This document shows, piece after piece, positions 27,000 through 63,874 of a stretch of 64,000 nt of DNA (positions are counted from its first letter, which is position 1; each line of letters begins with the position of its first letter). The notes beneath the pieces are model-generated. The model had not been told where the DNA came from, searched no databases, and worked only from the letters and a program-made list of their open reading frames with translations. The stretch lies in the NCBI GenBank assembly GCA_021801265.1, contig JAJYYE010000003.1, positions 39,874 to 103,873 on the forward strand, in the 5' to 3' direction. The translations under genes were made by a program, and so were the position numbers. The DNA comes from Pseudomonadota bacterium (GTDB taxonomy: Bacteria > Pseudomonadota > Gammaproteobacteria > Halothiobacillales > Halothiobacillaceae).

Positions 27000-27000
27000 C

Positions 27001-27843: not shown

Positions 27844-27847
27844 CACC

Positions 27848-43309: not shown

Positions 43310-43422
43310 TATGTAATCCTCATCATCTAAAACTTTGATGAACATAAAGCCATACATCCCTCTTGGCGGATCAAACGCTAGAGTTCTCCACCCTGACCTC
43401 GTAGATAGGGCGCTGGATTTAA

Positions 43423-43445
43423 AGATGCATAATACGCGCATCATA
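43423..43445. promoter_or_regulatory. Putative NsrR site (hemerythrin / nsrR promoter)
   Basis: AAGATGCAT, a 5-bp spacer, then GCGCATCAT. The first half is identical and the second matches 6 of 9 to the palindrome at norC, with the same 9-5-9 geometry. A further AAGATGCAA half-site lies at 43449-43457. The position between the divergent hemerythrin and nsrR-like genes supports autoregulation and NO control. Confidence 0.55.
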
Positions 43446-43527
43446 TTAAGATGCAATGGTTAAGCGCCATCCATATGACGGATATAATATGAGAGCAATT
43501 ACTGAACCCAAAAGGTACTAACATCTC

Positions 43528-45769: not shown

Positions 45770-45783
45770 AGATCAATTTCCTT

Positions 45784-46602: not shown

Positions 46603-46615
46603 AAGAACACCTTAA

Positions 46616-46885
46616 TTAGGTTGTGAGATAGGCGATGGCAATTAGTCCATTAATAATCAGTAGGTAAGAAGTCATGATATGTCTCCAAAGGGGGCGTACC
46701 TTGCGAAGCCCCATGAAATCACGAGCCACTAGTTGTCCCTTGATGATTGTGAGGGCGAGGATTACGAACATGAGCGCACGGCCGTTCATGATTGAACTCA
46801 GCTCGAAAGAGATTGTGGTAAGTCCAAGCAGCATGATCCAAGACGTAGTGCATGTTTTTAACGGTATGCTGTGAAATAGTTTCAT
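46616..46885 (-). CDS. norF: NorF, small membrane protein of the NO reductase operon
   Basis: An 89-residue protein with three hydrophobic helices, matching NorF in size and position (between norE and norQ). A segment near residue 55 (VARDFMGLRKVRPLWR) is typical of the COX4/NorF group. ATG 46885 has AAGAGAG upstream; the frame extends to 46960 over the norE 3' end. NorF supports full NO reductase activity. Confidence 0.8.
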   Translation of the reverse strand: MKLFHSIPLKTCTTSWIMLLGLTTISFELSSIMNGRALMFVILALTIIKGQLVARDFMGLRKVRPLWRHIMTSYLLIINGLIAIAYLTT

Positions 46886-46899
46886 TAGTCTCTCTTGGC

Positions 46900-47478
46900 T
46901 TAATGAATGACATAAACAAGCACAAAAAGGATGATCCAAACCAGATCTACCATGTGCCAATAGGAGGCTCCGGTCGCTACGCCGGTATGGTTTGTGTCGT
47001 AGCGCCCGGCATAGGCTTTATAGGCAACTACGGTAAGGATCGTCATGCCCATGACTACATGCATGAAATGAAAGAAGGTGAGGGAGAGGTAGAACATATA
47101 GAAAAGGTTGGTGGACAGATTAATGCCCTGCACGAAATCCTGGTGGAATTCCACCAGTTTTAGTACTAGAAACATCACGCCTAAGCCAAGTGTGCCAACT
47201 AACCAGTTACCACATGCCATACCGTGCCTAGCCTTGATTGATTGGGTTGCGCGTGCTACGAAATAACTGCTGGTTATGAGGATCAAAGTACTAAGGAAGC
47301 CGTAGAACCTGTTAAGCGTGAGTTGTGAAGCATTAAACAGATCCACGTTGTCGCTTCGTAAAAATGCGTAGACAGCAAAAAGCAAGCCGAATACAACAAG
47401 TTCAGCGAAAATAAAGATCCATATTGCAAGATCACCTGGCAGAGGTTCTAAGGTACTTGTGTTATTTGTGGTATGCAT
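46900..47478 (-). CDS. norE: NorE, cytochrome c oxidase subunit III-like protein
   Basis: A 192-residue membrane protein of the heme-copper oxidase subunit III family, with five hydrophobic helices and the conserved FFHFMHVVMGM and GASYWHMVDLVWI segments. Located between norB and norF, it is NorE, an accessory protein for NO reductase. Confidence 0.87.
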   Translation of the reverse strand: MHTTNNTSTLEPLPGDLAIWIFIFAELVVFGLLFAVYAFLRSDNVDLFNASQLTLNRFYGFLSTLILITSSYFVARATQSIKARHGMACGNWLVGTLGLGVMFLVLKLVEFHQDFVQGINLSTNLFYMFYLSLTFFHFMHVVMGMTILTVVAYKAYAGRYDTNHTGVATGASYWHMVDLVWIILFVLVYVIH

Positions 47479-47498
47479 CGTTGGTCACCGGTGAATGA

Positions 47499-47518
47499 GC
47501 GGGGCAAGCCAGCCCCGC
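47499..47518. repeat. Hairpin between norB and norE
   Basis: Perfect 7-bp stem GCGGGGC/GCCCCGC with a 6-base loop, in the 50-bp gap between the two genes. No T-tract follows in the direction of transcription (minus), so it more likely tunes mRNA processing or stability than ends transcription. Confidence 0.45.
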
Positions 47519-47528
47519 AAACTTGTGG

Positions 47529-48947
<1,419 letters not shown>

Positions 48948-49725: not shown

Positions 49726-50515
49726 TCAGTGCAATGCTTCGTTTAATACTTGGGCTGGGGTTTTAAATCCCAAAGTTTTCCTTGGTCTTGAGTTTAACTT
49801 TGCCGCGATGTCATCCAATTGATTTTGGCTGAATGTCGCCAACCCCGCCCCCTTTGGAAAATATTGCCTGAGCAGGCCATTGGTATTCTCGTTGGTGCCC
49901 CGTTGCCATGGGCTACTTGGATCACAGAAATAAACGTCCAGCTCTGTAGCCAGAGTAAAAACCTGATGTGCCGAGAGTTCCTGCCCCCTGTCCCAGGTCA
50001 GGCTTTTCAGGACTTGTTTAGGGAGTTTTTTCATTCGCTCGGTCAACGACTGCACAACGATGGAGGCTCCTTTATTCTTGACCTTGCACAGAACAGTGAA
50101 CCGCGAGTGCCGTTCGACCACAGTGGCCATAACGCTGCTTTCGCTGCCCATAATCAGATCACCTTCCCAATGTCCTGGAATCGCTCTGTCCTCAATCTCC
50201 GCTGGCCGTTCACGGATGGAGATAGCATCCACGATTTGCCCCCTCGTTGCCACTCGGTGAGATTTAGCCTGACGAAACATTCGCTGGGTTCTGAGGTGCT
50301 TTTTCAACTCAGTACGAAAAATCCCACGTGTCTGAATAAACAGGGATTTGTAGATCGTTTCGTGGGACACCTGCATTTCCCCGTTACCAGGAAAACGATC
50401 TTTAAGCCATCCGGAGATCTGCTCGGGTGACCAGTTCGATGTCAGTTTCTCAGTAACTACGGTTCTAAGTTCTGGATTTTCAGCGAGCAAAAGCACCTTG
50501 GGTCGTCGGCTATTC
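49726..50515 (-). pseudogene. 5'-truncated IS30-family transposase
   Basis: The visible frame (to 50592, 288 residues) keeps the DDE core of an IS30 transposase: WSPEQISGWLK, AIPGHWEGDLIMG, TWDRGQELSAH and PWQRGTNENTNGLLRQYFPKG. The N-terminal helix-turn-helix that precedes the RRPK segment in this group is missing. The first 25 or so codons (HIVCAAMLIYAHRWMH) do not look like transposase and overlap the control region of the next cluster, so homology ends near 50515. A relic, probably inactive, that marks the border of the GntR cluster. Confidence 0.7.
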
Positions 50516-50552
50516 ACTTGTATTGGATGCATCCATCTGTGTGCGTAAATCA

Positions 50553-50575
50553 GCATTGCCGCACAAACAATGTGC
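50553..50575. promoter_or_regulatory. Putative UAS for the GntR-cluster sigma-54 promoter
   Basis: GCATTG (50553-50558) and CAATGT (50568-50573), the latter inside the inverted repeat GCACA-AACAA-TGTGC (50561-50575), about 90-110 bp before the -24 element. The half-site matches those upstream of the two other sigma-54 promoters; a six-base match alone could be chance. Confidence 0.4.
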
Positions 50576-50661
50576 ATGGCAAAGCATGTCATGTTTTACC
50601 AATTCACAAATAAAGTGATATAAAACAATAAGATATTTAACATACCCCGGCAACCAAAGTA

Positions 50662-50678
50662 TTGGCACGCCTATTGCT
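50662..50678 (+). promoter_or_regulatory. Sigma-54 promoter of the GntR cluster
   Basis: TTGGCACGCCTATTGCT fits the -24/-12 consensus closely, GG at 50664-50665 and GC at 50676-50677 with 10 nt between. It lies 60 bp before the GntR-family start codon. Confidence 0.85.
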
Positions 50679-50681
50679 TAA

Positions 50682-50697
50682 GTTATCATGTCATAAC
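50682..50697. promoter_or_regulatory. Candidate GntR operator at the start point
   Basis: GTTAT-CATGTC-ATAAC, an inverted repeat covering the expected transcription start of the sigma-54 promoter. A related palindrome ATGTCATGACAT occurs before the 1190-residue oxidoreductase gene. Autoregulation by the HutC-type regulator is a reasonable inference. Confidence 0.4.
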
Positions 50698-50737
50698 AAG
50701 TTCTGACCTAAAGCATTAATAGCTGGACACCAATATT

Positions 50738-51487
50738 ATGCAAAGTGAAAAAAACATTTTACATTTTTCTCCTGTACCTCTTTATACCCAAATAAAGGAG
50801 GTATTAAGAAACCGTATTTTGAATGGTACTTATCAGTGCCATGATCAAATGCCGTCCGAGAGCGAATTAACCAAGATATTTGGGGTAAGTCGAATTACTG
50901 TGCGACAAGCCTTGGACCATCTGCAAAAAGAAGGTCTGATTTTCAAAATTCATGGCAAGGGCACCTACGTGTCCAAGCCTAAAGTTTTTCAGAACCTGGG
51001 AAAACTCCAGGGGTTTGGAGAGGCGATGTCTGGGATGGGTTATGAAATCGTCTCCGAGTTAATCGACCAGAAAGTTATTCCGGCCGACAAAACAGTCTCT
51101 TTAAAGTTGAACGTGAATAAAGACGAGCTTGTTTATGAGATTCGTCGTGTTCGTTACTTGAATAGATCCCCACTATCTCTGGATGTGACTTATATCCCTA
51201 AGGCTATAGGTGAACGACTCGTGAAAGAAGATCTAGCGCATCGAGATATCTTCCTCATTCTTGAAAATGATTATGGCTACTCGCTTGGCCAGGCTGATCT
51301 GCAAATTGAATCAATTCTGGCAGATGATGTTTTGGCAGAGCTTCTTCATGTTGATGCAGGGGCACCGATCCTGCGAATTGAACGACTTACCTTTACTACC
51401 AACAACCAACCCCTTGATTTTGAGTATCTGTATTACCGAGGTGATGCCATCCAGTATCGTCTTCGTATTGAGCGCGGGCCTATCTGA
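50738..51487 (+). CDS. GntR-family (HutC subfamily) transcriptional regulator
   Basis: A 249-residue regulator: N-terminal winged helix (about 12-78; PLYTQIKEVLRNRI and ELTKIFGVSRITVRQALDHL), then a UTRA effector domain (about 100-240; SLDVTYIPKAIGERL and ILRIERLTF). UTRA domains bind small metabolites. It is the first gene after a sigma-54 promoter and is followed at 52 bp by the AprA-like gene, so it probably regulates the cluster. The ribosome site is weak. Confidence 0.87.
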   Translation: MQSEKNILHFSPVPLYTQIKEVLRNRILNGTYQCHDQMPSESELTKIFGVSRITVRQALDHLQKEGLIFKIHGKGTYVSKPKVFQNLGKLQGFGEAMSGMGYEIVSELIDQKVIPADKTVSLKLNVNKDELVYEIRRVRYLNRSPLSLDVTYIPKAIGERLVKEDLAHRDIFLILENDYGYSLGQADLQIESILADDVLAELLHVDAGAPILRIERLTFTTNNQPLDFEYLYYRGDAIQYRLRIERGPI

Positions 51488-51538
51488 CCGTAAGCCGATT
51501 AGACATGTGCAAACCGATTAAGTGAGGAGAGACACCAC

Positions 51539-53269
51539 GTGAATACCATTGAGATGGAAGTAGATGTATTGGTGATCGGGGGCGGAACCGCCGGCCCCAT
51601 GGCCGCAGTGAAGGCGAAGGAAAAAAATCCGGCTCTTCGCGTGATGGTGCTGGAAAAGGCCAACGTGAAAAGAAGTGGGGCGATTTCCATGGGCATGGAC
51701 GGCCTGAACAATGCCGTGATTCCGGGGCATGCCACGCCAGAGCAGTATGTGAAGGAAATCACGGTGGCCAACGATGGCATCGTGAACCAGAAAACCGTGA
51801 TGGCCTACGCCCAACACAGTTTTTCCATGATCGAGGAGCTGAATAACTGGGGCGTGAAATTCGAAAAGGACGAAACTGGCGACTATGCGGTGAAGAAGGT
51901 CCATCACATTGGTACCTATGTGTTACCCATGCCGGAAGGTCACAACATGAAAAAGGTCCTCTATCGACAATTGAAGAAGCGTCGCGTAGAGGTGACCAAC
52001 CGGCTGGTGGCGACTCGGTTACTGCTGGATGAAAATGGCGCCATCGCCGGTGCCATGGCCGTGGATAGTCGTACGGCAGATTTTTACGTAATCCGCACCA
52101 AGACCGTGATTCTGGCCACCGGAGCGGCCGGTCGCTTGGGGCTCCCCGCCTCCGGCTACCTGTTCGGCACCTATGAGAACCCCACCAACGCTGGCGACGG
52201 GTATAGCCTGGCCTATCACGCTGGCGCCGAGTTGTCCGGTATCGAATGTTTCCAGATCAACCCCTTGATCAAGGACTACAACGGCCCCTCTTGTGCCTAT
52301 GTGACCGGCCCTTTTGGCGGTTACACCGCCAATGCCAAGGGTGATCGTTTCATCGAGTGTGATTACTGGAGCGGCCAGATGATGCAGGAGTTCTACCGGG
52401 AGCTGGAGGGTGGCAACGGCCCCGTGTTCCTGAAAATGGATCACCTGGCGGAAGAGACCATTTCTCAGATTGAGGACATCCTGCATAGCAATGAGCGTCC
52501 CAGCCGCGGGCGTTTCCATGAAGGCCGTGGTCTGAATTACCGAGATGGCATGGTCGAAATGCATATTTCAGAAATCGGGCTCTGTAGTGGACACAGTGCA
52601 TCCGGTGTATGGGTCAATGAGCGTGCCGAAACCACGGTTCGTGGGTTATATGCAGCGGGCGATCTCGCCTGTGTGCCACATAACTACATGCTGGGTGCCT
52701 TTGTTTATGGCAAGTTCGCGGGCGAATCTGCTGCCGAATATTGTGCCGAGCACACGCCTGCTCCTGTGGATGAACATCAAATAGAAGAAGAGCGCGCGCG
52801 CGTCTGGGGGCCATTATCCGTGAAAGACGGGTTGCCTCCGGCGCAGGTTGAATACAAGTTGCGGCGGATGGTGAATGACTATCTTCAACCACCCAAGGTT
52901 ACCCGCAAGATGGAGATTGGGTTACAGCGGTTTGGGGAAATCACGAAGGACCTGGCTCGCCTGAGTGCGGCAGACCCCCACGAGCTTATGCGGGCCATGG
53001 AAATTCACTTTATTCGCGATTGTGCCGAGATGGCCGCTGTGGCATCGCTATACCGAAAGGAAAGCCGATGGGGTCTTTACCACTATCGGGTTGATTATCC
53101 CGATAAGAACGATCAGGACTGGTTCGTCCATGTCCAGCTCAAAAAGGGTGAAGACGGGAATATGACTTGTTTCACTCGGCCTATCGCGCCCTATATTGTG
53201 CCGTTGGACGAGCAGGAAAAAACGGCCTATGAAAAGCTACGGATTATTAAAGAACCCGCAACCATTTAA
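51539..53269 (+). CDS. AprA-like / fumarate-reductase-superfamily flavoprotein
   Basis: A 576-residue FAD enzyme. The FAD Rossmann motif VLVIGGGTAGPMAAVKA begins near residue 10, followed by the AprA-like VKRSGAISMGMDGLNNAV, a capping domain and the GLYAAGDLACVPHNYMLGA segment. It is nearer to adenylylsulfate reductase alpha than to SdhA/FrdA, yet sat or the Qmo genes are absent. GTG 51539 has GAGGAGAG upstream. The next gene is a dicluster ferredoxin in the place of AprB. It may reduce or oxidise an unidentified substrate with ferredoxin as partner. Confidence 0.78.
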   Translation: MNTIEMEVDVLVIGGGTAGPMAAVKAKEKNPALRVMVLEKANVKRSGAISMGMDGLNNAVIPGHATPEQYVKEITVANDGIVNQKTVMAYAQHSFSMIEELNNWGVKFEKDETGDYAVKKVHHIGTYVLPMPEGHNMKKVLYRQLKKRRVEVTNRLVATRLLLDENGAIAGAMAVDSRTADFYVIRTKTVILATGAAGRLGLPASGYLFGTYENPTNAGDGYSLAYHAGAELSGIECFQINPLIKDYNGPSCAYVTGPFGGYTANAKGDRFIECDYWSGQMMQEFYRELEGGNGPVFLKMDHLAEETISQIEDILHSNERPSRGRFHEGRGLNYRDGMVEMHISEIGLCSGHSASGVWVNERAETTVRGLYAAGDLACVPHNYMLGAFVYGKFAGESAAEYCAEHTPAPVDEHQIEEERARVWGPLSVKDGLPPAQVEYKLRRMVNDYLQPPKVTRKMEIGLQRFGEITKDLARLSAADPHELMRAMEIHFIRDCAEMAAVASLYRKESRWGLYHYRVDYPDKNDQDWFVHVQLKKGEDGNMTCFTRPIAPYIVPLDEQEKTAYEKLRIIKEPATI

Positions 53270-53284
53270 TCAAGGAGCAGTGCC

Positions 53285-53518
53285 ATGCCTTATGCCCTGA
53301 ACCGCGTCACAGTCCCCGTTACCGTGGATGCCGATAAATGTATTGCCGATAAGGGGTGCACCGTTTGTGTGGATGTCTGCCCCCTGGATGTACTCGCAAT
53401 CGATTTAACCAAAGGAACGGCGTACATGAAATTCGATGAATGCTGGTATTGCATGCCCTGTGAAAAAGACTGCCCGACAGGGGCTGTCAATGTCGACATC
53501 CCATATTTGCTTCGCTAG
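53285..53518 (+). CDS. Dicluster 4Fe-4S ferredoxin (AprB-like)
   Basis: A 77-residue protein binding two [4Fe-4S] clusters: C19-x5-C25-x2-C28-x3-C32P and C53-x2-C56-x2-C59-x3-C63P. The extra spacing in the first motif and the DECWYCMPCEKDCP segment resemble the AprB core. RBS AAGGAG precedes the ATG. It lies 15 bp after the AprA-like gene and is its likely electron partner. Confidence 0.85.
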   Translation: MPYALNRVTVPVTVDADKCIADKGCTVCVDVCPLDVLAIDLTKGTAYMKFDECWYCMPCEKDCPTGAVNVDIPYLLR

Positions 53519-53533
53519 GTCATGGAGTCAAAC

Positions 53534-54502
53534 ATGAATGAACTTGCCAACCAAAACGAAGAAATATCAGCAATTTTAGCCCGCTTGATTGACCCGGATC
53601 CGGGCGTTCGCCGGATTGCGGTGCTGGATTTATTGGATACAGATGATTACGACCTCGTTGCACCCGCCCTGCTGCAGGCCTTGGGTGATCAGGATGCGAG
53701 CGTGCGAGCGGAAGCGGCTATAGCGCTCGAAGGATTTGAGACACCAGAGATCATACGAGGGCTATTGATGGCACTGACGGATGAGGCCCCGGAGGTAGCC
53801 AAGGCCGCTGCTCAATCCTTGGCTGAGTTGAAGTCGCCGGTGACCGGTGTGTTGTTGGTCACGGCACTGAGCACGGCTAAAGGTTTCCAGAAGGCGTCCA
53901 TATTGCGAGCCCTGCGGGAGCTGCGTGTGCCGGCCAGTCTGGCCCCTGCCTTGGCAGCACTGAATGATACCGACGATACCGTGCGGGCGGCGGCCCTTGG
54001 GGTATTAGGCTATCTCAAAGCGCCGAGTGCCGTCGGCCCGATAGCCGTATTGGCTACCAGTGATAAGGCACCTCAGGTTCGGCGAATCGCAGTGGGTGCC
54101 CTTGGTTTTGAGGCGGCTGATTTGTCGGCGATTTTGCCTGCGCTGATCACGGCTCTGCGTGACGAATTCTGGCAGGTCCGAGAGGAATCGGTGGCCACAT
54201 TGGGCAAGTTGGGCATGGACCAGGGTGTCCCATATTTGATCGAAGCCATGATGGATGAGTATTGGCAGGTTCGCCTCAAAGCGGCGCGCAGTCTGGGCAA
54301 GTTACGGAGTCGGGAGGCGGTTCCGGTTCTCTCTAAAGCGCTCTTTCATCAGGTGAGTAATCTGCGTAAGGAGGCGGCCGTCGCGCTGGGCGAGGTGGGA
54401 GATGCTCGAGCCATACCAGCCCTTGAAAAGGCCCTCCAGGACCCCGATCCGGATGTACGTAAGTTGGCGGGTTTGGCGCTGAGCCAGATTACCGGCAAAT
54501 AA
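53534..54502 (+). CDS. HEAT-repeat protein
   Basis: A 322-residue all-helical repeat protein, at least nine HEAT/PBS-lyase-like units of about 31 residues with the recurring pattern DxxxxVRxxAxxALG. ATG 53534 has GGAG 7 nt upstream; an in-frame ATG at 53522 is possible. It is probably a scaffold or assembly factor for the redox partners around it. No catalytic residues are apparent. Confidence 0.82.
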   Translation: MNELANQNEEISAILARLIDPDPGVRRIAVLDLLDTDDYDLVAPALLQALGDQDASVRAEAAIALEGFETPEIIRGLLMALTDEAPEVAKAAAQSLAELKSPVTGVLLVTALSTAKGFQKASILRALRELRVPASLAPALAALNDTDDTVRAAALGVLGYLKAPSAVGPIAVLATSDKAPQVRRIAVGALGFEAADLSAILPALITALRDEFWQVREESVATLGKLGMDQGVPYLIEAMMDEYWQVRLKAARSLGKLRSREAVPVLSKALFHQVSNLRKEAAVALGEVGDARAIPALEKALQDPDPDVRKLAGLALSQITGK

Positions 54503-54527
54503 AACCTCAATATGGGAGAACGAGAGC

Positions 54528-54854
54528 ATGGCTTATGTCGTTGCGGAGCCCTGTGTCCGCTGCAAATACACAGACTGTGTGGATGTTTGTCCTGTGGATT
54601 GTTTCCACGAAGGTCCCAACTTCCTGGTTATTGATCCAAAGGCATGTATTGATTGTTCATTGTGTGTAGACGAGTGTCCCGCAGGCGCAATTTTCGCGAT
54701 CGAGCATCTGCCGGATAAATACGAAAAATATATCACTCTGAATATTGAATTATCGCAATCATGGCCTCTGATTCACTCAAAAATAGATCCTCTAGAGGAT
54801 GCTGATGATTGGGTGGATGTTGAGGATAAATTTCACGAACTGAGATTATCGTAA
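54528..54854 (+). CDS. fdxA: 7Fe ferredoxin (FdxA type)
   Basis: A 108-residue ferredoxin with one [3Fe-4S] and one [4Fe-4S] cluster. Cys9, Cys17 and Cys50 are in the 3Fe positions, and Cys21, Cys40, Cys43 and Cys46 in the 4Fe positions, with free Cys12 and Cys25, matching Azotobacter ferredoxin I almost exactly. The C-terminal extension of about 50 residues is typical. It gives the cluster a second electron carrier beside the dicluster ferredoxin. Confidence 0.9.
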   Translation: MAYVVAEPCVRCKYTDCVDVCPVDCFHEGPNFLVIDPKACIDCSLCVDECPAGAIFAIEHLPDKYEKYITLNIELSQSWPLIHSKIDPLEDADDWVDVEDKFHELRLS

Positions 54855-54855
54855 G

Positions 54856-54879
54856 TTGTATTTAGGTCATTAAATACAA
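54856..54879. repeat. Inverted repeat after the 7Fe ferredoxin gene
   Basis: Perfect 9-bp AT-rich arms TTGTATTTA and TAAATACAA with a 6-base centre, starting 2 bp after the fdxA stop. It may be an operator for the ABC genes that follow or a weak terminator; no T-tract follows. Confidence 0.45.
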
Positions 54880-54981
54880 ACATGGTGTATTGGACACGTG
54901 TTGGTTGGTTTGAATTTCATGTGGGGAGGCGTTTGATTGATTTTGTTCTGCAAGGTTTAAATTGTTTCAGAGGTGAGTGTC

Positions 54982-56433
54982 ATGGAAAAGTATTTGCTTT
55001 TTTCTCAGGTTAAAATTGGAATTTTATTCAAAAAAACCAAAGTTTTATTTGCACTGTTGTTTTTGGTTATGAGTTTTTCGGCATCGGCCGAGACGGTAAC
55101 CGTGGGCATTGGTATTCAAAATACGACTACAAATACAGTCACGGGCGGCATCGTCATAAAAGAACTCGGGCTGATGAACAAATATCTTCCGACAACCGGA
55201 AAGTATAAAGACATTCACTTTAAACTCCAGTGGCAGAATTTTACCTCTGGCCCTCCTGTGACGAACGGGATGATTGCCGACAAGCTGCAAATCGGCATGA
55301 TGGGGGATTATCCATTATTGGTTAATGGGGCTACCTTTCAGAATAGCCATGACACGCAAAGTGAATTGGTTGCAGTTCTTGCCTATAACGCTGATGGTGC
55401 AGGCAATGGCGTCGTCGTCCGGGCTGATTCTCCCTATTACCAACTCTCCGATCTCAAGGGTAAGCGTATTTCCGTCCCATTCGGTTCCGCCGCCCATGGC
55501 ATGTTACTCAAAGCCATGGAGGATCGAGGGTGGAAGAGTGATTTCTGGGAGCTATCGAACCAGAGTCCTGAGGTAGGCACCACCAATCTACAAGAGGGGA
55601 AGATCGACGCGCACGCTGATTTCGTACCGTTTGCTGATCTTCTCCCTTTCAAGGGATGGGCGCGCCAGATTTTCAGTGGTGTAGAAACCAAAGTGCCTAC
55701 CTTCCATGGTGTCGTGGTACGAAAGGACTTTGCGGATAAATATCCTGAGGTGGTGGTGGCCTATCTAAGGGCACTGATGGATGCAAACGACTGGCTTCGT
55801 AAGAACCCCAAACTTGCTGCCGAGAAGATTCAGCAGTGGACCGGTGTCGATAAAGAAGTGGCGTATCTCTATCTGGGCCCCAGTGGTATCCACACCCTTG
55901 ATCCCACCATCAAGTCCAAGTGGATTGATGCCATCAAATACGATACGGGCGTGTTGCAACGTATGGGTAAGGTCAAATCGTTTGATGTGGATGCCTGGCC
56001 GAACGAGACCTACATTCGCGAAGCATTCAAGGATCGTGGAGAAGATTACGACAAGCAAAAAGCGAGTTTTGCCAATTATCAGATTTCCGGTATGGATAAC
56101 CTCTGCCATAAGCCCATCACGGATCCCAAACAGGCTGGCGAAGTCTGGATTGAGCAGGGTGATATCAGTGCCTACAGCTCGCCCGACTGCACGTTGGCCG
56201 CTGTCAACAAGGCGACCCGTGAAGGCAAGAAGATCGATGTGGTGTATCTGATCGACCATGCCTTCGGTATCAAGGTATTTGCCAAGCAAGCCTTCTATTC
56301 AGTGGACGAAAAAGACCCCAAGAAACCCATTATCGTGCCCTTCTTGTTGAAGAAAAACGCTGAGGCCTATGCCGAGAAGCACGGTGGGCATCTGGCCACG
56401 TACACAGAAGCGCTGGCTGCTGCAAAGATTTAA
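54982..56433 (+). CDS. NitT/TauT substrate-binding protein with C-terminal NosL-like domain
   Basis: A 483-residue exported protein, about 130 residues longer than typical SsuA/TauA proteins. After a signal peptide (cleavage after SASA) the binding domain covers about 30-345. The extra C-terminal part (about 366-483) contains DNLCHKP, SPDC, KQAFYSVDEKD and VPFLLKKNAEAYAEKHGG, resembling NosL, a copper-binding lipoprotein of nitrous oxide reductase maturation. ATG 54982 has AGAGGTGAG upstream; GTG 54973 is an alternative. The two parts may couple ligand capture to metal handling; this is inference. Confidence 0.78.
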   Translation: MEKYLLFSQVKIGILFKKTKVLFALLFLVMSFSASAETVTVGIGIQNTTTNTVTGGIVIKELGLMNKYLPTTGKYKDIHFKLQWQNFTSGPPVTNGMIADKLQIGMMGDYPLLVNGATFQNSHDTQSELVAVLAYNADGAGNGVVVRADSPYYQLSDLKGKRISVPFGSAAHGMLLKAMEDRGWKSDFWELSNQSPEVGTTNLQEGKIDAHADFVPFADLLPFKGWARQIFSGVETKVPTFHGVVVRKDFADKYPEVVVAYLRALMDANDWLRKNPKLAAEKIQQWTGVDKEVAYLYLGPSGIHTLDPTIKSKWIDAIKYDTGVLQRMGKVKSFDVDAWPNETYIREAFKDRGEDYDKQKASFANYQISGMDNLCHKPITDPKQAGEVWIEQGDISAYSSPDCTLAAVNKATREGKKIDVVYLIDHAFGIKVFAKQAFYSVDEKDPKKPIIVPFLLKKNAEAYAEKHGGHLATYTEALAAAKI

Positions 56434-56453
56434 GGATCTAAGGAGACTTCGCC

Positions 56454-57422
56454 ATGAATACAACCACTGGTCTTTTGCTGTCCAAACAAGTTCATGAACA
56501 AACCTTGGATCATGATGACACGCTGGACCCTATGACTGATCCCACCACCGTGTCAACCAGGACTCCGGCGAACGGGTACGACTCAGCCGCGGCCAGGCGA
56601 TCCCTTGCCCCGGTGCGGAAGATGATTAACAGCCAGAGGTTCATGGCGAATATCACTAAATTTCTGCTCGGCTTGCTCTCGATTACGCTTTTTGTGGGCT
56701 TCTGGTATCTGGCCACAAAATACCGATGGGATTTCTATATCCGATTCACCAGTATTCCGACACCAGGCGATGTCTTCACAGAGGCGCTCATCTTGAGTCA
56801 TCAGGAGGATTTTTACAAAAACATGGCGTTAAGTTTATGGCGAATCATACTCGGGTTTGGTATCGCTACTGTGCTTGGCGTGTTATTCGGCTTGATCATC
56901 GGTCGATATCGCCTCGTGCATAGTCTACTTTTCCCGATTTTAGAGATTCTCCGTCCGATCCCGGCAATTGCCTGGGTGCCTATTTCGATCATGCTGTGGC
57001 CAACCAATGAATCCAGCATTGTTTTTATTACATTTCTGGGTTCTTTCTTCCCGATTTTGGTCAATACCATTGAGGGTGTTTCCAACCAGGACAAGATTTT
57101 GATTAGTGCGGCTCGGTCATTGGGGGCCGGTGAATTCGCCTTAATGAGAGAAGTCATTCTGCCTGGCGCCCTACCCAGTATTTTTACAGGGTTGGCTATT
57201 GGAATGGGGGTGGCGTGGGTATCGCTGATTGCCGCAGAAATGATTTCAGGAGAATACGGAATTGGATATTTCACTTGGGAGGCTTATTCACTGATTCAAT
57301 ATAACGATATTGTTATCGGCATGATTGTGATTGGCATATTGGGCCTTGCCTGCAGCGGTATCATCCGACTAATGGGGCGGATCTTGATGCCTTGGCACTC
57401 TACTTATAATGGGAGAAACTAG
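56454..57422 (+). CDS. NitT/TauT ABC transporter permease
   Basis: A 322-residue permease with an extended, hydrophilic N-terminus (about 1-65) and a BPD_transp_1 domain. The EAA loop is visible in ARSLGAGEFALMREVILPGA. Paired with the neighbouring binding protein and ATPase. Confidence 0.85.
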   Translation: MNTTTGLLLSKQVHEQTLDHDDTLDPMTDPTTVSTRTPANGYDSAAARRSLAPVRKMINSQRFMANITKFLLGLLSITLFVGFWYLATKYRWDFYIRFTSIPTPGDVFTEALILSHQEDFYKNMALSLWRIILGFGIATVLGVLFGLIIGRYRLVHSLLFPILEILRPIPAIAWVPISIMLWPTNESSIVFITFLGSFFPILVNTIEGVSNQDKILISAARSLGAGEFALMREVILPGALPSIFTGLAIGMGVAWVSLIAAEMISGEYGIGYFTWEAYSLIQYNDIVIGMIVIGILGLACSGIIRLMGRILMPWHSTYNGRN

Positions 57423-57424
57423 CC

Positions 57425-58294
57425 ATGATGAATCTGGGAAATGTGAGTTTGAAAGGGTTCATAGAAATTCAGAATCTGAAGGTGACTTTTGGTCAGAAGG
57501 GTAACCTGGTGGAGGCGGTCAGTGGAATTTCCATTCATATTAACCCCGGTGAATTCGTATCAATTGTTGGGCCGTCCGGATGTGGAAAATCCACCTTATT
57601 AAATGCTGTTGCGGGGTTTGTCAAACCTTCAAGTGGAAAGTTATTACTCGATGGTCAAGAGATTAAGGGCCCTGGCGCTGATCGAGGCATGGTTTTCCAG
57701 CAATATTCATTATTCCCTTGGATGTCGGTTCGCAAGAATGTGGAGTTCGGCCTGAAGATGGCCGGCAAGGGACGCAGTGAATGTGAGAGTGCTGCCAGGA
57801 CCTTGCTGGGGCTCGCAGGGCTTTTGGCCTTTGAGAACCATTATCCCGATCAGCTATCCGGGGGTATGCGGCAGCGAGTCGGCATTGTTCGGGCCTTGGC
57901 CACCAGTCCCCAAGTGTTGTTAATGGATGAGCCATTTGGTGCACTGGATGCCCAGACGCGCGTGGTGATGCAGGAAATTCTCACCAACATGTGGCAGCGG
58001 TTCCGCCTTTCCGTCCTGTTTATTACCCATGACATAGATGAATCCATTTTTCTTTCCGACCGGCTCTATGTCATGACGGCCCGACCCGGAAAAATCAAGG
58101 CTGAAATCGAAATCCCCCTCCCCCGTCCACGGGTACCTGAAATGGCGGACTCTCCCGAATTTCTTAAATTAAGGCAGGAGCTCCATACCCTGATTCGAGA
58201 AGAGAGCTTGCGGGCGATGGGGGGGGAGATTCAGGAAGGATTGGGGGGGTTCGATGTAGAGGTTGGTCCTAAAGGCATTAAAGAGCTTATATAG
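57425..58294 (+). CDS. NitT/TauT ABC transporter ATPase
   Basis: A 289-residue ATPase of the SsuB/TauB type. Walker A is GPSGCGKS, signature LSGGMRQR and Walker B LLMDEPFGALD. Start ATG 57425 (or the next codon) lies 2 bp after the permease stop, so the two are coupled. A Gly-rich acidic tail near residues 260-280 is unusual for the family. Confidence 0.87.
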   Translation: MMNLGNVSLKGFIEIQNLKVTFGQKGNLVEAVSGISIHINPGEFVSIVGPSGCGKSTLLNAVAGFVKPSSGKLLLDGQEIKGPGADRGMVFQQYSLFPWMSVRKNVEFGLKMAGKGRSECESAARTLLGLAGLLAFENHYPDQLSGGMRQRVGIVRALATSPQVLLMDEPFGALDAQTRVVMQEILTNMWQRFRLSVLFITHDIDESIFLSDRLYVMTARPGKIKAEIEIPLPRPRVPEMADSPEFLKLRQELHTLIREESLRAMGGEIQEGLGGFDVEVGPKGIKELI

Positions 58295-58607
58295 GTTAAC
58301 CAGTCATTGCTTGGAAAATATTTTCACGCATTGCATAGGGTTGGTTTGTCATGTATCTGGGTATGGATAAATACCGTAATCAGGAATGGTGGGCTTTATC
58401 CATAGGGATAATCGCCCCATGCATGATTATATATCATATTATTCTCTTCACTCGACCTTGGTGTGTTCCATTGTTTTAGCTGATTTTTAAAATATTTTGG
58501 CGCTGTTTATTTTTATAAGATGTCATGACATGTCTTGATGTTTTTTGTTTCCCTGTCTTTTTAATCGGAATTATTTTGTCGATTGATACGCTAAGGAGTG
58601 ATTTAAC
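58295..58607 (+). promoter_or_regulatory. AT-rich control region before the 1190-residue oxidoreductase
   Basis: A 313-bp gap with lower GC than its neighbours and no gene. It contains the palindrome at 58520-58531 and a good ribosome site AAGGAG just before the next start. No sigma-54 element fits (TTTGGCGC near 58496 lacks the -12 GC). Confidence 0.4.
58517..58536. promoter_or_regulatory. Overlapping palindromes, candidate GntR operator
   Basis: ATGTCATGACAT (58520-58531) is a perfect palindrome and GACATGTC (58527-58534) overlaps it; together they span AAGA...TCTT. HutC/GntR operators often centre on TGTC/GACA, and the GntR-cluster promoter has a related repeat. Confidence 0.45.
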
Positions 58608-61600
58608 ATGGCCCGACTTGAATTGAGTCTTGCAGGATTTGGTTATGATGACATTTATCGGGCTGATCGATTGCCCGCGCTTGATGCATTGTTTTTACAG
58701 TTCCTTGAGGAAAATTCGTCGAGTGTCGGAGCGCAGTTCCGCTTGTACCGCGGCGGTGAAAATCTTGGTTCGATCTCGGAGTCTGATCTTCTTATTGCCG
58801 CGGCAAAACAGTTGGAGGACTTTCTGGTACAGGTTTTCGGCGTGGAAATTGATCGAAGCGCACTCCGATTACAGCAGGATCAGGATGATCCTATTCATGC
58901 GTTTAAGGAAAAAATGGTCAAGCCAACGTTAAAGCGGCGTCATTGTGTGCCCGAGCACTCCTTTGAGGAGCTTGATGACTTGCTTCAGGCCAAGCTGGCT
59001 ACCGGCACGGTACTCGATCCAGAACTCGCCATCGCAAGTCTTTGGCTTGATGCCGTAAAGTGCAGTGACACGCAGACCCTTGACCTGATCAAACAATGGG
59101 TATCCGCGGCGAATCACTCCGTATCTGGCCGTCATCGGGTGGCTGGGTGGGTCAGCTTCAACCTGCCTCGCAAAGTGATCCCCCTTGAGTTAGTCCCTAC
59201 CTTACCTTTGAAAGATGATCCTTTTGGTCGAGTGAGTGGCTTACCTGAACGACAACGTCATCGGGACGGATTCAACTTGACGGATGCACGGTTCACTTTG
59301 CGTCAGGCCATGGATCAGGTGCATTACTGTGTATATTGTCATGAGCATGAAGGCGATTTTTGCTCCAAGGGGCTTCCGGATCGAGAACAGGGCGGCTTTC
59401 GTTCCAACGTGCTTGGCGTGGAGCTTAATGGTTGTCCCCTGGAGGAGCGAATATCCGAAGCTCACGGCTTGAAGCGTGGGGGCTATACCTTGGGTGCCCT
59501 GTCCGTGATCATGATTGATAATCCCTTGGTACCGGCCACGGGTCATCGCATCTGTAACGACTGCATGAAAAGCTGCATCTACCAGAAGCAGTCGCCGGTG
59601 GACGTGCCTCAGATAGAAACCAGAATCCTGACCGATGTGTTGTCCTGGACGTGGGGTTTTGAACTCTATTACCTGCTCACCCGTTGGAATCCGCTCAATC
59701 GGGAGCGCCCTTATGCGCTCCCTCATCACGGGACGTCCGTCTTGTGCGTGGGTACGGGGCCGGCCGGTTTCAATCTTTCCCATCATTTACTCCATGCCGG
59801 ATTTGGTGTGGTGGCTGTGGATGGTCTGAAGATCGAACCCCTGCTCGAAGTGTGGACAGGATCACCGGGGCAAGCACCCATGCCAATTCAACATATTTCC
59901 CAGCTGAACGAGCCTCTGGAGGATCGCATTACACTCGGGTTTGGGGGGGTGGCTGAATATGGCATCACTGTACGATGGGACAAGAATTTCCTGAAGTTGG
60001 TCTATCTGACCTTGGCGCGCAACCCCTATTTCCGTGTGTACGGCGGGGTCCGTTTTGGCGGCACTCTGACCACCGAGGATGCGTGGTCGCTGGGATTTGA
60101 TCATATCGCCCTGGCCACCGGTGCGGGCAAACCGACGGTAGTGCCCATCAAAAACAATTTGGCCCATGGCATTCGTCAGGCGAGTGATTTTCTCATGGCC
60201 CTGCAACTGACCGGGGCGGCCAAGAAGGACAGTCTCACCAATCTGCAAGTTCGTATGCCCGCCCTAGTTGTGGGTGGAGGCCTAAGTGCCATTGATACGG
60301 CAACGGAGATTCAAGCCTATTACATCCGCCAGGTTGAGAAGCTTCTGGTACGTTATGAGCGTCTGCTAGACGCGGCATTCTGGACTGAGCTGGAAGACCC
60401 AGGTGAGCGCGAGGTATTGGCGGAGTTTCTGGGTCATGGTCGACAGGTGCGTGCCGAGCGTGCCAGAGCCTCCGTGCAAGGGGAAACGCCTGATTTTTCC
60501 CGCCTGTTGCATCAGTGGGGTGGTGTTACCGTGGCTTATCGGCGGGGCATGAACGAATCGCCTGCCTATTTGAGGAACCACGAGGAAATCGACAAGGCGT
60601 TGGAGGAGGGAATTCTTTACGCGGAAGGCATGGATCCATTGGAAGCCAGACTGGATCAGCGGGGTCATGTGTCCGGTTTGGTGTGTCGTCGACTGGTCAA
60701 GGATGATGAGGGTGCATGGCTTGATGTCGGTGAACTGGTTGAGTTTCCCGCGCGTTCTGTTTTCATGGCGGCGGGGAGTAGTCCCAACACGGTTTACAAT
60801 CGGGAGCATCCTGGCAGTTTCGTGATGAGTGGCAAATACTTTGCGACCTACCGTATTGGTGACGACCCTGAACATTTGTTACCGGCAGTGGAAGTCGGTC
60901 ATGTGAAGGAGCGGGACACCGGGTTTTTCACGTCCTATCGCCGAAACGGTCAGCAGGTGAGTGTCTACGGGGACAACCATCCCTTGTTTCAGGGAAGTGT
61001 AGTGAAAGCCATGGCCTCGGCCAAACGGGGGGCAAGAGAAATCATCCGTCTCTATGAGGATAGGTTGATCGCGAATTCTGATCGCATTGAGGCGAGTCAC
61101 GCCACTTGGTTGCAATTGGTCGCTCGGTTGGATGACGCCTTGCGGCCTCGTATTGCTCACATTGAGCGGCTGAGCGATCATCTGACCCGGATCACGGTGC
61201 GAGCACCCCAAGCGGCACGGCATTGGATGCCCGGACAAATCTACCGATTGCAGAACTATCACGCCCAGGCCTCTCGAATCGGGGATACGCTCCTGCACAT
61301 GGAAGGCATGGCCGTCGATGGTGTGGACGTCGATAAAATATCGGGAGAAATCAAGCTATTGGTGAATCTGGTCGGCACCTCTACGCGGATTGCTTCTCGC
61401 CTGCAGGTGGGTGAACCGGTGGTACTCATGGGGCCAACGGGGACTGGGCTGCCCATGCCGGAGAACAGCGTGGTCACGGTCATGGGCGGCCACTCGGCGG
61501 TCACCAGCGCGATTGACGGAAGCACTGCCTGGCGTGCCGCCGGAAATAAGGTGATATTTATCGGCCACTTCCGGGATGCAGCGCGTGCCAAACCGGTTCA

Positions 61601-62180
61601 GGCTATCATGGAAATCCTCTCGGACCAGGCGATCTGGATCTTTGACAATGGCCCTGGTTTGGCGTGCTCTCGCCCCCAAGATCGGTGTTTTGTTCACGGG
61701 GTGGATAACTATTTGCAGGATTGCCTGAAAAATACAGGGGCCCATTGGGATTGGCTCAGTCAGACCGACAGTCTTATTCTGTCCGACCAGCCTCCGGTTA
61801 TGGATCAAGTGGCAACCGCCCTTAGGGGCTATTTGAAGCCCATGCTCAAGCAAGGCCTTACGGCGGTGGCCTCAGTCAATAGTCCCATGCAATGCATGAT
61901 GAAGGAGGTCTGTGCCCAATGTCTGTGCCGACACCATGATCCAGATACCAAGGAACCTACTGGTGTGGTATTTTCCTGTTTTAACCACCATCAACCCTTG
62001 TTTGAGGTGGACTTTGTCAATCTGCAGGCTCGGCAGGGACAGAACAGTGTTCAGGAAAAAGTGGGGAATCAGTGGTTATCTTTTCTGTTGGGCAACGAGG
62101 GCGCGCCCTCGGAGGACAATCCGTTGACTTCAGCCCAAGCGGTGGTCTGTCATGAGACGCTCCAGGCGTTGATCCCGTGA
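58608..62180 (+). CDS. Multi-domain FAD/Fe-S oxidoreductase (GltD/NfnB-like core plus FNR-type reductase)
   Basis: A 1190-residue protein. An N-terminal region (1-230) of unknown fold precedes Cys motifs C241-x2-C244-x7-C252 and C316-x2-C319-x3-C323, which resemble Fe-S ligands of GltD/dihydropyrimidine-dehydrogenase proteins. FAD and NAD(P) Rossmann motifs follow (GTGPAG near 382, VVGGGLSAIDTA near 554). A ferredoxin-reductase module (about 848-1090; MPGQIYRLQ) ends in a PyrK-like cluster motif C1096-x5-C1102-x2-C1105-x-C1107-x16-C1124. It could move electrons between NAD(P)H and the ferredoxins encoded upstream, possibly with bifurcation. Overlaps the next gene by GTGA. Confidence 0.78.
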   Translation: MARLELSLAGFGYDDIYRADRLPALDALFLQFLEENSSSVGAQFRLYRGGENLGSISESDLLIAAAKQLEDFLVQVFGVEIDRSALRLQQDQDDPIHAFKEKMVKPTLKRRHCVPEHSFEELDDLLQAKLATGTVLDPELAIASLWLDAVKCSDTQTLDLIKQWVSAANHSVSGRHRVAGWVSFNLPRKVIPLELVPTLPLKDDPFGRVSGLPERQRHRDGFNLTDARFTLRQAMDQVHYCVYCHEHEGDFCSKGLPDREQGGFRSNVLGVELNGCPLEERISEAHGLKRGGYTLGALSVIMIDNPLVPATGHRICNDCMKSCIYQKQSPVDVPQIETRILTDVLSWTWGFELYYLLTRWNPLNRERPYALPHHGTSVLCVGTGPAGFNLSHHLLHAGFGVVAVDGLKIEPLLEVWTGSPGQAPMPIQHISQLNEPLEDRITLGFGGVAEYGITVRWDKNFLKLVYLTLARNPYFRVYGGVRFGGTLTTEDAWSLGFDHIALATGAGKPTVVPIKNNLAHGIRQASDFLMALQLTGAAKKDSLTNLQVRMPALVVGGGLSAIDTATEIQAYYIRQVEKLLVRYERLLDAAFWTELEDPGEREVLAEFLGHGRQVRAERARASVQGETPDFSRLLHQWGGVTVAYRRGMNESPAYLRNHEEIDKALEEGILYAEGMDPLEARLDQRGHVSGLVCRRLVKDDEGAWLDVGELVEFPARSVFMAAGSSPNTVYNREHPGSFVMSGKYFATYRIGDDPEHLLPAVEVGHVKERDTGFFTSYRRNGQQVSVYGDNHPLFQGSVVKAMASAKRGAREIIRLYEDRLIANSDRIEASHATWLQLVARLDDALRPRIAHIERLSDHLTRITVRAPQAARHWMPGQIYRLQNYHAQASRIGDTLLHMEGMAVDGVDVDKISGEIKLLVNLVGTSTRIASRLQVGEPVVLMGPTGTGLPMPENSVVTVMGGHSAVTSAIDGSTAWRAAGNKVIFIGHFRDAARAKPVQAIMEILSDQAIWIFDNGPGLACSRPQDRCFVHGVDNYLQDCLKNTGAHWDWLSQTDSLILSDQPPVMDQVATALRGYLKPMLKQGLTAVASVNSPMQCMMKEVCAQCLCRHHDPDTKEPTGVVFSCFNHHQPLFEVDFVNLQARQGQNSVQEKVGNQWLSFLLGNEGAPSEDNPLTSAQAVVCHETLQALIP

Positions 62181-62497
62181 ATACTCCAGTAGGTAGTTCA
62201 GCACCGCGTGAGATTCGTTATCACAGAGCATCTAACGAACTGGAGTGTGTGTGGTCTGATGGCAGCCGAAGTCGCTATCGGGGGGCCGATTTACGCGGTG
62301 CGTGCCACTGCGCATTCTGTGTGTCGATTTCGTCGATTGGTCGGTTGATCGACCAGGATGCCCGCGCATTTCTTGTTGCATCTGTGGTTAACGTGGGTAG
62401 TTACGGCATCCAGATCATCTTTCAGGATGGGCATGACAGAGGCATTTACCCCTGGGTTTACCTTCGGGGGCTTCCATCCTTGGACGGCGGATCTTGA
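62177..62497 (+). CDS. DUF971-family protein
   Basis: A 106-residue protein matching the DUF971 (gamma-butyrobetaine-hydroxylase-like N-terminal) domain, with SNELECVWSDGSRSRYRG, a CHCAFC-type Cys set (CHCAFC, residues 46-51), and a GSYGIQIIFQDGHDRGIY pattern. The family is small and of unknown role, often near Fe-S cluster assembly genes. GTG start overlaps the upstream stop, so it is translationally coupled to the 1190-residue oxidoreductase and likely its maturation factor or partner. Confidence 0.78.
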   Translation: MNTPVGSSAPREIRYHRASNELECVWSDGSRSRYRGADLRGACHCAFCVSISSIGRLIDQDARAFLVASVVNVGSYGIQIIFQDGHDRGIYPWVYLRGLPSLDGGS

Positions 62498-63058: not shown

Positions 63059-63499
63059 TTAAACCCCACCATGCCTCGCCCAAAATTCTGCCGGGGTGAG
63101 GATGGCATACTGATCGGCCAATGCCAGAAGATCCTTGTCCCCTGTGATGAGGTATTGAACAGCGTGCGATTCTTGGGCGGCCATCAAAGTGCCCAAAATG
63201 GGTTGATCAAAGGCATCTCGCAAATTCGGGTCGTTTACTTTGATGGGTTCAACCTGTTCTGCATCGATGGCCAAGATATCAACCAGATCATCCATTTCAG
63301 CGGCTGATAACCCATGCCATGCAGATAACCTCGGTAATACGCGGCGTAATTCGTCAAAAATGTATTGAGAAAGCACCACCTCTATCGCACCGTGCCGCCA
63401 TGCCGCCACAATTTTGCCTGGCACACTATTCGGATAGGCGATACCAGACAGAAGCACATTCGTGTCTAGGACCACACTCAAACGGTGATTTAGTGCCAT
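63059..63499 (-). CDS. PIN-domain toxin (VapC-like / PilT N-terminal)
   Basis: A 146-residue PIN ribonuclease, the toxin of a type II module. The acidic residues are visible: Asp in SVVLDTNVLLSGI, Glu near EEL-type FDELRRVL, and Asp in LITGDKDLLAL. ATG 63499 lies 4 bp after the antitoxin stop; an upstream frame to 63637 overlaps the antitoxin. It belongs to the COG1569-like putative toxin group with DTNVLLSG. Confidence 0.82.
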   Translation of the reverse strand: MALNHRLSVVLDTNVLLSGIAYPNSVPGKIVAAWRHGAIEVVLSQYIFDELRRVLPRLSAWHGLSAAEMDDLVDILAIDAEQVEPIKVNDPNLRDAFDQPILGTLMAAQESHAVQYLITGDKDLLALADQYAILTPAEFWARHGGV

Positions 63500-63503
63500 T
63501 GCG

Positions 63504-63794
63504 TTAGCCTGGATCCTGCGGTGTGCGTTCCGCACGCAAAGCCGCCACGGCCGCATCAATTTCAGCAAGGCCTTCTGCCTCGGGTACTGCAGCAAAGCCC
63601 TGCTCAAGGCGTTTTGAGAGTGATTCAAACCGGGCATTCATGCGGCGAATCCGCTCAAAAAGACGGGCATCCACCAAAGCGGCTACCGGTTTACCATCTT
63701 TGTTAATCACGATGCTGTCATGGCGGTATTGCACCTGATTGAGCATTTCCCCCAGGTTTTGCCGAAAAGCCACGGCATTGGTTTGGGTAATCAT
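63504..63794 (-). CDS. Phd/YefM-type antitoxin
   Basis: A 96-residue antitoxin. The N-terminal fold AVAFRQNLGEMLNQVQYRHDSIVINKDGKPVAALV has the Phd pattern, followed by a helical tail that would bind the PIN toxin. ATG 63794 has GAGGA upstream; the frame to 63872 does not. It lies upstream of the toxin in the usual order. Confidence 0.82.
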   Translation of the reverse strand: MITQTNAVAFRQNLGEMLNQVQYRHDSIVINKDGKPVAALVDARLFERIRRMNARFESLSKRLEQGFAAVPEAEGLAEIDAAVAALRAERTPQDPG

Positions 63795-63874
63795 GGCGTA
63801 TTCCTCACTATTTATATCATATTGATCATTATGGTCGAGTTGATTGAAAACACAAGTTGTGAACACAAGCAATA

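Follow-up and report, generated by a model that had tools for sequence, protein, structure and literature searches.

What does a bacterial operon do when its genes resemble those for sulfonate uptake and for the reduction of adenosine 5′-phosphosulfate (APS), and its promoter resembles those switched on by nitrogen limitation? The question is raised by ten open reading frames (ORFs), all on the + strand, at positions 50738-62497 of a 64,000-nucleotide stretch of DNA (hereafter the window; contig JAJYYE010000003.1 of assembly GCA_021801265.1, positions 39,874 to 103,873) from a Pseudomonadota bacterium of the family Halothiobacillaceae. Checking of the ORF coordinates confirmed the layout given in an initial annotation of the locus, and family-model searches reproduced the gene families it had named: an importer, a flavoprotein, ferredoxins, a HEAT-repeat protein, a DUF971 protein and a regulator. 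We tentatively propose that these genes form a nitrogen-scavenging module, which would import a sulfonate-type anion carrying nitrogen (sulfamate being the likeliest) and cleave its N-S bond reductively to ammonium and sulfite. With somewhat less assurance, we suggest that this may be the first enzyme system in which the nitrogen of sulfamate-type compounds is released through reductive cleavage of the N-S bond, placed under NtrC or NtcA control and distributed over proteobacteria, cyanobacteria and actinobacteria.

A conserved gene neighbourhood and its predicted regulatory signals

The analysis is based on 107 loci, of which 80 were obtained with the AprA-like flavoprotein of the operon (the best 80 of 148 matches), 12 are chosen plasmid records and 15 stem from draws of whole genomes; a sixteenth locus fetched from these draws (L114), without an AprA-like gene, was left out. 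A gene was counted as near if it lay no more than 9 kb from the AprA-like gene; contig ends truncate some of the loci. On this count an AprB-like ferredoxin gene is near in 106 of the 107 loci, a HEAT-protein gene in 104, the gene of a binding protein with a NosL-type tail in 91 and a DUF971 gene in 79. The neighbours are largely the same throughout the 80 loci obtained with the AprA-like protein alone. As a single gene had served to pick these, an unbiased test was made on the genome draws. Among 398 genomes of the phylum, 21 carry the AprA-like gene and 20 the binding-protein gene, all 20 being shared; among 369 genomes of the class the same five carry both (Fisher 8e-33 and 2e-11, respectively, counting genomes as independent). 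In one genome (G389) both genes are present and lie far apart. The initial annotation had set the pathway it proposed against a scattered occurrence of its genes without conserved neighbourhood; what we find is clearly clustering of the AprA-like, ferredoxin, HEAT and binding-protein genes, and the conserved core is a real unit.

These core neighbours recur in proteobacteria, cyanobacteria and actinobacteria, with copies on plasmids of the latter two groups. Plasmid records were matched 53 times by the AprA-like protein and 44 times by the binding protein, and 8 and 6 of these, respectively, were examined. Of the loci fetched, the one whose block is closest to that of the window comes from a metagenome-assembled genome (MAG) of Halothiobacillus (L001), and neither the AprA-like gene nor the binding protein was found, at the thresholds used, in three genomes of the window's own family. 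Given this absence from same-family genomes and the plasmid carriers, the module is patchy in distribution and apparently mobile.

Ahead of the operon, where the initial annotation had placed a sigma-54-type promoter and a HutC-type regulator, both are present. Motif matching locates a predicted -24/-12 element, TGGCACGCCTATTGCT, at 50663-50678 (+ strand) and, 102 nt 5′ of it, a predicted NtrC site, GCACAAACAATGTGC, at 50561-50575 (+ strand), which is a perfect match to GCAC-N7-GTGC, the sequence that we take to be the NtrC binding consensus. In the whole window a sigma-54-like site is paired with a perfect NtrC box at this promoter only, and both ntrC and rpoN of the host genome score above their model cut-offs, so that the operon has the make-up predicted for a member of an NtrC/sigma-54 regulon: a -24/-12 element, an upstream GCAC-N7-GTGC, and NtrC and RpoN encoded in the genome. 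An IS30-like transposase ORF, named by eye, lies directly upstream (49726-50592); as the predicted NtrC site overlaps the 5′ end of this ORF, it may be a remnant.

The same arrangement recurs at other copies of the module. Sigma-54-like sites occur in 21 of 61 upstream regions in which a GntR gene directly precedes the AprA-like gene (window included), against 13 of 2460 random 250-nt windows from the same loci. Seventeen of these 21 promoters (window included) have a perfect NtrC box, compared with 3 of the 40 GntR-AprA regions that have no such promoter, and three control palindromes yielded no perfect match (0/21 each) at the same promoters; with one mismatch allowed, the NtrC box is found at 19 of the 21 and the controls at 7, 2 and 6. 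In all three cyanobacterial loci examined GTA-N8-TAC, the NtcA box, lies 72-74 nt 5′ of the binding-protein start, a box that is expected, per locus, in about 5% of shuffled 150-nt stretches. Genes for amidases of allophanate-hydrolase type, three of which (in L045, L047 and L108) were tested by family model, are near in 11 of the 107 loci, in L108 between the importer and Nfn genes, and likewise speak for nitrogen. On the strength of the NtrC boxes at 17/21 sigma-54-like promoters and of these NtcA boxes, the module looks nitrogen-controlled.

The first gene of the operon (50738-51487, + strand) encodes a GntR/UTRA regulator of 249 residues, matched in both domains, which may tune expression to a ligand. 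Its predicted operator, CATGTCATAACAAGTT (50687-50702, + strand; consensus about CTTGTCATNACAAG), lies just 3′ of the promoter and is the best operator match in the window, with one mismatch. The operator motif was recognized by eye in 10/10 upstream regions inspected, in reverse orientation in L106. Matches with up to three mismatches number 15 in the window against 15.2 expected, which is not above chance, and one of them, with three mismatches at 58519 before the 1190-residue gene, was dismissed on that ground. Of the 107 loci, 74 have a GntR relative and 30 a Crp/Fnr gene near the AprA-like gene.

The cyanobacterial loci also carry LysR-type regulators of about 670 residues (L092:13349-15385, L093:13486-15486 and L097:12251-14266). 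That of L092 unites LysR DNA-binding and sensor domains with a binding-protein domain akin to the module's importer, and those of L093 and L097 are 47-48% identical to it. The ligand of the importer thus looks to be sensed directly.

The flavoprotein and its predicted electron supply

The predicted catalytic subunit is an AprA-like FAD flavoprotein of 576 residues (51539-53269, + strand; FAD_binding_2 and Succ_DH_flav_C domains), which scores 1081.4 bits against NF006131 (PRK08275, function unknown; cut-off 587). It is followed by a predicted electron-relay subunit, an AprB-like 2x[4Fe-4S] ferredoxin of 77 residues with eight cysteines (53285-53518, + strand; 38.7 of the 135.65 bits of the aprB model), and by a 326-residue protein, recognized by its HEAT repeats, that we predict to be the scaffold of the flavoprotein (53522-54502, + strand); in Tsukamurella (L095) the AprA-like and HEAT proteins are fused into one chain.

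The nearest solved structure is the alpha subunit of the phosphoadenosine phosphosulfate (PAPS) reductase of Methanothermococcus thermolithotrophicus (8a8o), and the AprA-like/AprB-like pair combines the alpha fold of APS reductase with an adjoining two-[4Fe-4S] beta subunit. This likeness raises the alternative of an APS or PAPS reductase variant serving ordinary sulfate assimilation, which we regard as highly improbable: no sulfate-activation gene is among the ten, and the protein reaches 190.3 of the 641.75 bits of the aprA model (TIGR02061), whose cut-off is exceeded by no protein in the whole host genome. Moreover, Trp234 and Arg265 of APS reductase (A. fulgidus numbering, positions taken from the alignment), presumably APS-binding residues of which Arg265 would hold the sulfo group, align with Tyr212 and Leu243, neither of which varies in any of the 108 AprA-like sequences. 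The Methanothermococcus enzyme retains both in the same alignment. A true APS reductase was ruled out on the model score and these replacements.

Within the family, 214 positions reach at least 98% identity among the 108 homologues (window included), and Tyr212, Asn241, Leu243, Tyr247, Asn248 and His352, as well as the flavin pocket, are invariant. The simplest reading of these alignments is that the whole AprA-like family acts on one substrate, which would be neither APS nor PAPS. In the AlphaFold model the mean predicted local distance difference test (pLDDT) score is 71 and the pocket loops fall below 50, so that a ligand is not placeable.

Electrons would reach this enzyme from ferredoxin. 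The fifth gene (54528-54854, + strand) encodes an FdxA-type 7Fe ferredoxin of 108 residues, above the cut-off of NF045490 (146.7 bits against 135) and the predicted electron donor. The ninth (58608-62180, + strand; Pyr_redox_2), preceded by a gap of 313 bp, encodes a protein of 1190 residues with Cys-rich stretches in its N-terminal and C-terminal parts. Since a single chain matches both NfnI subunits (5jca chains L and S), we regard it as a fused NfnB/NfnA-type FAD/NAD(P)H/Fe-S oxidoreductase and predict that it supplies electrons from NAD(P)H to ferredoxin. Within 9 kb, FdxA is found in 34 of the 107 loci, the Nfn fusion in 12 and the ferredoxin-NADP reductase Fpr (154 of 390 bits by model, annotated under this name in L086) in 17, Nfn and Fpr never occurring together. 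FdxA is accompanied by Nfn or Fpr in 25 of its 34 loci, and only four Nfn or Fpr loci have no FdxA (p 5e-13). Two unrelated NAD(P)H:ferredoxin enzymes thus fill the same role, which argues that electrons flow to the flavoprotein.

These counts alter the picture given by the initial annotation, which had treated the ten genes as one set with the 1190-residue protein as a defining member: FdxA and the 1190-residue protein are exchangeable, and the latter is an optional electron-supply part, replaceable by ferredoxin-NADP reductase. The pathway then sketched, in which a small anion containing sulfur or nitrogen is taken up and then reduced or oxidized with ferredoxin and NAD(P)H electrons, still fits, and the findings now speak for both elements and for the reducing direction.

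Among the 120 listed relatives of the 1190-residue protein, those with a name are mainly from the sulfur oxidizers Sulfuriferula, Thiobacillus, Thermithiobacillus and Acidihalobacter and from unclassified Burkholderiales or Pseudomonadota MAGs. That fused Nfn enzymes form a wider family is suggested by relatives P0091-P0120, whose identity is about 44-52%; many of these have 1230-1270 residues, and one is assigned to Candidatus Manganitrophus.

The last gene (62177-62497, + strand) encodes a DUF971 (GBBH-like_N) protein of 106 residues, by family match, predicted to help in Fe-S assembly. In the three cyanobacterial loci, on plasmids of Leptolyngbya and Pseudanabaena, HEAT is followed by a gene for an Mrp/NBP35-type Fe-S carrier, and this by TauE or YeiH where the stretch examined extends so far.

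Importer, sulfur context and candidate substrates

The importer comprises a periplasmic binding protein of 486 residues (54973-56433, + strand; NMT1/SsuA-type) and, by family match, an ATP-binding cassette (ABC) permease of 322 residues (56454-57422, + strand) and an ABC ATPase of 289 residues (57425-58294, + strand). The binding protein has the TauA/SsuA fold and falls below the cut-offs of the related models (116.9 of 163.5 bits for TIGR01728, SsuA_fam; 80.4 of 304.25 for TIGR01729); sulfonate binders rank first by profile, by Foldseek and by VIA-align, whose rows span mainly model residues 39-366, so that this fold comparison excludes the tail. The tail itself (residues 385-479) is NosL-like: it scores 19.1 bits against the PF05573 gathering score of 24, and a profile of 49 homologues matches the solved NosL 7og7 with an E-value of 5e-4. 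In several loci of marine Rhodospirillaceae and Roseibium a membrane protein of unassigned family is encoded between permease and ATPase (L055:16895-17575, and in L056, L059, L064, L072 and L080), followed in some by SCO1-like, PCuAC-like and cytochrome c genes, identified by eye; together with the NosL-like tail, the SCO1-like and PCuAC-like neighbours could hint at copper.

As the ABC type is shared with NrtABC and CmpABCD, the nitrogen motifs might also be explained by import of a sulfur-free nitrogen anion of nitrate, nitrite, cyanate or nitro type, to be reduced by ferredoxin electrons, and a cyanase gene does lie near one locus (L097). We find this improbable: it sits poorly with the top rank of sulfonate binders in all three comparisons, and it leaves the sulfur-related neighbours, namely sulfatase, a protein of formylglycine-generating enzyme (FGE) type, SulP and YeiH- or TauE-type proteins, unexplained. 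Exporter-type matches within 9 kb comprise TauE-type proteins in 3 and YeiH-type proteins in 9 of the 107 loci, some of these matches being weak and none of the counts set against a background; the YeiH of L051 reaches 141 of 232.6 bits, and TauE was recognized by Pfam in L092 and by annotation only in L089.

One variation in gene content concerns a sulfatase. In Paraburkholderia largidicola (L096) a GntR gene, an importer whose binding protein shows 62% identity, a sigma-54-like site and, by eye, an operator-like palindrome stand ahead of a sulfatase bearing the motif CTPTR, an FGE-type protein (named from Pfam and annotation, below the NCBIfam cut-offs of GldK, EgtB and SenA) and SulP, in the place where other operons carry AprA-AprB-HEAT. 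Apparently the same strain has the AprA-like module on another replicon. On a Gordonia plasmid a sulfatase 70% identical to that of L096, an FGE-type gene and an unannotated SulP match (49% identity) lie near a binding protein of the importer family, which in the tree stands far from that of L096 and beside that of Tsukamurella; these placements put the sulfatase cassette near the importer family in two distant branches. Two of the six examined plasmid stretches matched by the binding protein have no AprA-like gene; a sulfatase gene, an FGE-type gene and a SulP match occur in both. A further sulfatase cassette, on a Mycobacterium adipatum plasmid, has no importer within 7 kb. A gene annotated as gyrB adjoins the sulfatase, FGE and GntR genes, together with paired DUF202 genes, in both actinobacteria (L094:1489-3426 in Gordonia, L124:8363-10285 in M. 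adipatum).

A sulfatase could be a direct source of ammonium only if the nitrogen were bound to the sulfo group. This consideration also bears on a second alternative, in which taurine or a small aminosulfonate is imported and attacked at its C-N bond, the flavoprotein oxidizing the amine, freeing ammonium and passing electrons to ferredoxin, with the leftover sulfonate exported by a TauE/YeiH-type protein. By profile, the taurine binder TauA comes out as the closest solved relative of the binding protein, L-aspartate oxidase, which oxidizes an amine, is among the fold relatives of the flavoprotein and belongs to the same superfamily, and both the nitrogen motifs and the TauE-type neighbours would be accounted for. 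A sulfatase and FGE-type protein near the same importer family would, however, free no nitrogen from taurine, FdxA with Fpr or Nfn has the look of an electron donor, and tpa, xsc and tauXY are not named in 14 annotated neighbourhoods. Taken together, these points make the taurine alternative unlikely.

A slightly better case, though still an unlikely one, can be made for a sulfur-source module, in which the AprAB-like enzyme would reductively cleave the C-S or S-O bond of an imported sulfonate or sulfate ester to sulfite and so spare the ATP of sulfate activation, nitrogen control being then a local habit. In L033, L035 and L037, which belong to methanotrophs and to a betaproteobacterial MAG, ssuE-type, ssuD-type and importer genes precede AprA-AprB-HEAT on the same strand (SsuD and SsuE of L033 being above their model cut-offs), sulfate-binding proteins lie near L037 and L077, and the sulfatase swap and the APS/PAPS reductase fold agree with such a role; Methylomonas has a sulfotransferase-type gene between module genes. 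Set against this are the NtrC and NtcA boxes, which indicate nitrogen, and the scarcity of SsuD, found within 9 kb in just 4 of the 107 loci (TauD was not sought in the loci); none of the ten products of the operon was recognized by family models as a desulfonating oxygenase of the SsuD or TauD kind. The hosts matter as well. That of the window, whose genome (2.66 Mb, 99.9% complete) contains soxB, is probably a sulfur-oxidizing relative of Halothiobacillus, given that the nearest copy of the block is in a Halothiobacillus MAG, and sulfur-oxidizing hosts with soxB would hardly be short of sulfur.

The nitrogen motifs in a sulfur oxidizer, the ssu-linked methanotroph-type loci and the sulfatase that stands in behind a promoter of the same type would all be explained by a compound whose nitrogen is attached to a sulfo group, and sulfamate is the smallest such compound. 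In the nitrogen-scavenging module that we favour, NtrC and sigma-54 would switch the operon on when nitrogen is limited, and the TauA/SsuA-like importer would bring in sulfamate (H2N-SO3-) or a similar anion. Electrons would pass from NAD(P)H through the Nfn-type fusion (Fpr in relatives) to FdxA, the AprB-like clusters and FAD, in a complex held together by the HEAT protein, with DUF971 (Mrp in cyanobacteria) aiding Fe-S cluster assembly. The reduced flavin would attack sulfur and displace ammonia rather than a nucleotide, and the sulfite formed might be assimilated, oxidized or exported through TauE/YeiH-type proteins. Such a step would mirror the attack of flavin N5 on sulfur proposed for the Methanothermococcus PAPS reductase (PMC10322725).

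Several observations weigh against this proposal. Sulfamate was picked by logic and not from a ligand, so that the substrate and the reaction are deductions, and the sulfur site cannot equal that of APS reductase, since Arg265 and Trp234 are replaced. Methanotroph-type loci place the module after genes of sulfur-starvation type (ssu). No sigma-54-like site is found in 40 of the 61 GntR-AprA upstream regions, 14 further GntR regions, ten of them alphaproteobacterial, have neither such a site nor an NtrC box, the sigma-54-like promoters of L019, L031, L044 and L051 have no perfect NtrC box, and many alphaproteobacterial copies are accompanied by Crp/Fnr regulators. Two of the three cyanobacterial loci with NtcA boxes are close relatives, and a search for a GlnR box in three actinobacterial loci found none. 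As to the sulfatase cassette, the NtrC box of L096 has one mismatch, the support for the placement of its binding protein in the tree is only 0.75, and the two importers of P. largidicola may take different substrates, as an AprA-like module is apparently also present there. Finally, the amidase counts, like those of the exporters, come without a background control.

If the proposal holds, the module would represent an unrecorded source of nitrogen (and sulfur), a hitherto unseen entry of S-N anions into the nitrogen cycle, a biological sink for sulfamate from sweetener breakdown and a new reaction in the APS-reductase flavoprotein family, in a module that so far bears nothing but misleading annotations, fumarate reductase among them. 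With the nitrogen motifs and the sulfatase swap in hand, the question narrows to a few growth and ligand tests.

Genomic setting and comparison with known systems

On the minus strand at 41700-48929 the window encodes an NnrS-like protein, a CbbQ/NorQ-type ATPase and, by eye, norB/norC-like genes, and what looks like a nitric-oxide respiration cluster, partly named by eye, thus adjoins the module. At 25407-28714 a 530-residue NMT1_2 binding protein followed by two same-strand ORFs, by eye a nitrate-type ABC importer, is a candidate second nitrogen importer. Just 3′ of the operon (63059-63872), a PIN-type and a Phd-like gene, named by eye, likely form a toxin-antitoxin pair.

A paper library was searched for the gene set, the families, sulfamate nitrogen and the nitrogen control of sulfonate use; judged mostly from titles and the beginnings of abstracts, none of the papers returned describes the module. 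In Paraburkholderia phymatum an 'alkane sulfonate' operon that depends on nifA is reported (PMC8305402) and was considered as a lead. It was dropped because pBPHY01, although part of the collection searched, is missing from the 44 records that the binding protein matches. A further paper (PMC4287336) yielded nothing.

Parts of the module nonetheless have known counterparts. Clusters for the degradation of acesulfame, a sulfamate compound, in Bosea and Chelatococcus encode an ABC importer, a sulfatase, an amidase and a TauE-like exporter and yield sulfamate as end product, which the degraders reportedly do not use (PMC10413263); these clusters are hydrolytic, and the available text of that report mentions no AprA-like enzyme. 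From TauABC and SsuABC the importer differs in the NosL-like C-terminal domain of the window's binding protein and in the rarity of SsuD nearby. NfnAB, the NADH-dependent ferredoxin:NADP oxidoreductase, consists of two subunits, both of which are here contained in one chain with an extra, long N-terminal part. By annotation names, the flavoprotein can be compared with PRK08275 (NF006131) and with the flavoprotein-HEAT fusion PRK13800 (NF010374), which the Tsukamurella fusion resembles. With the Methanothermococcus PAPS reductase (8a8o) and dissimilatory AprAB it shares the flavoprotein fold and the two-[4Fe-4S] beta subunit, and it differs from them in that its gene is linked to an importer and a HEAT protein and not to ATP sulfurylase.

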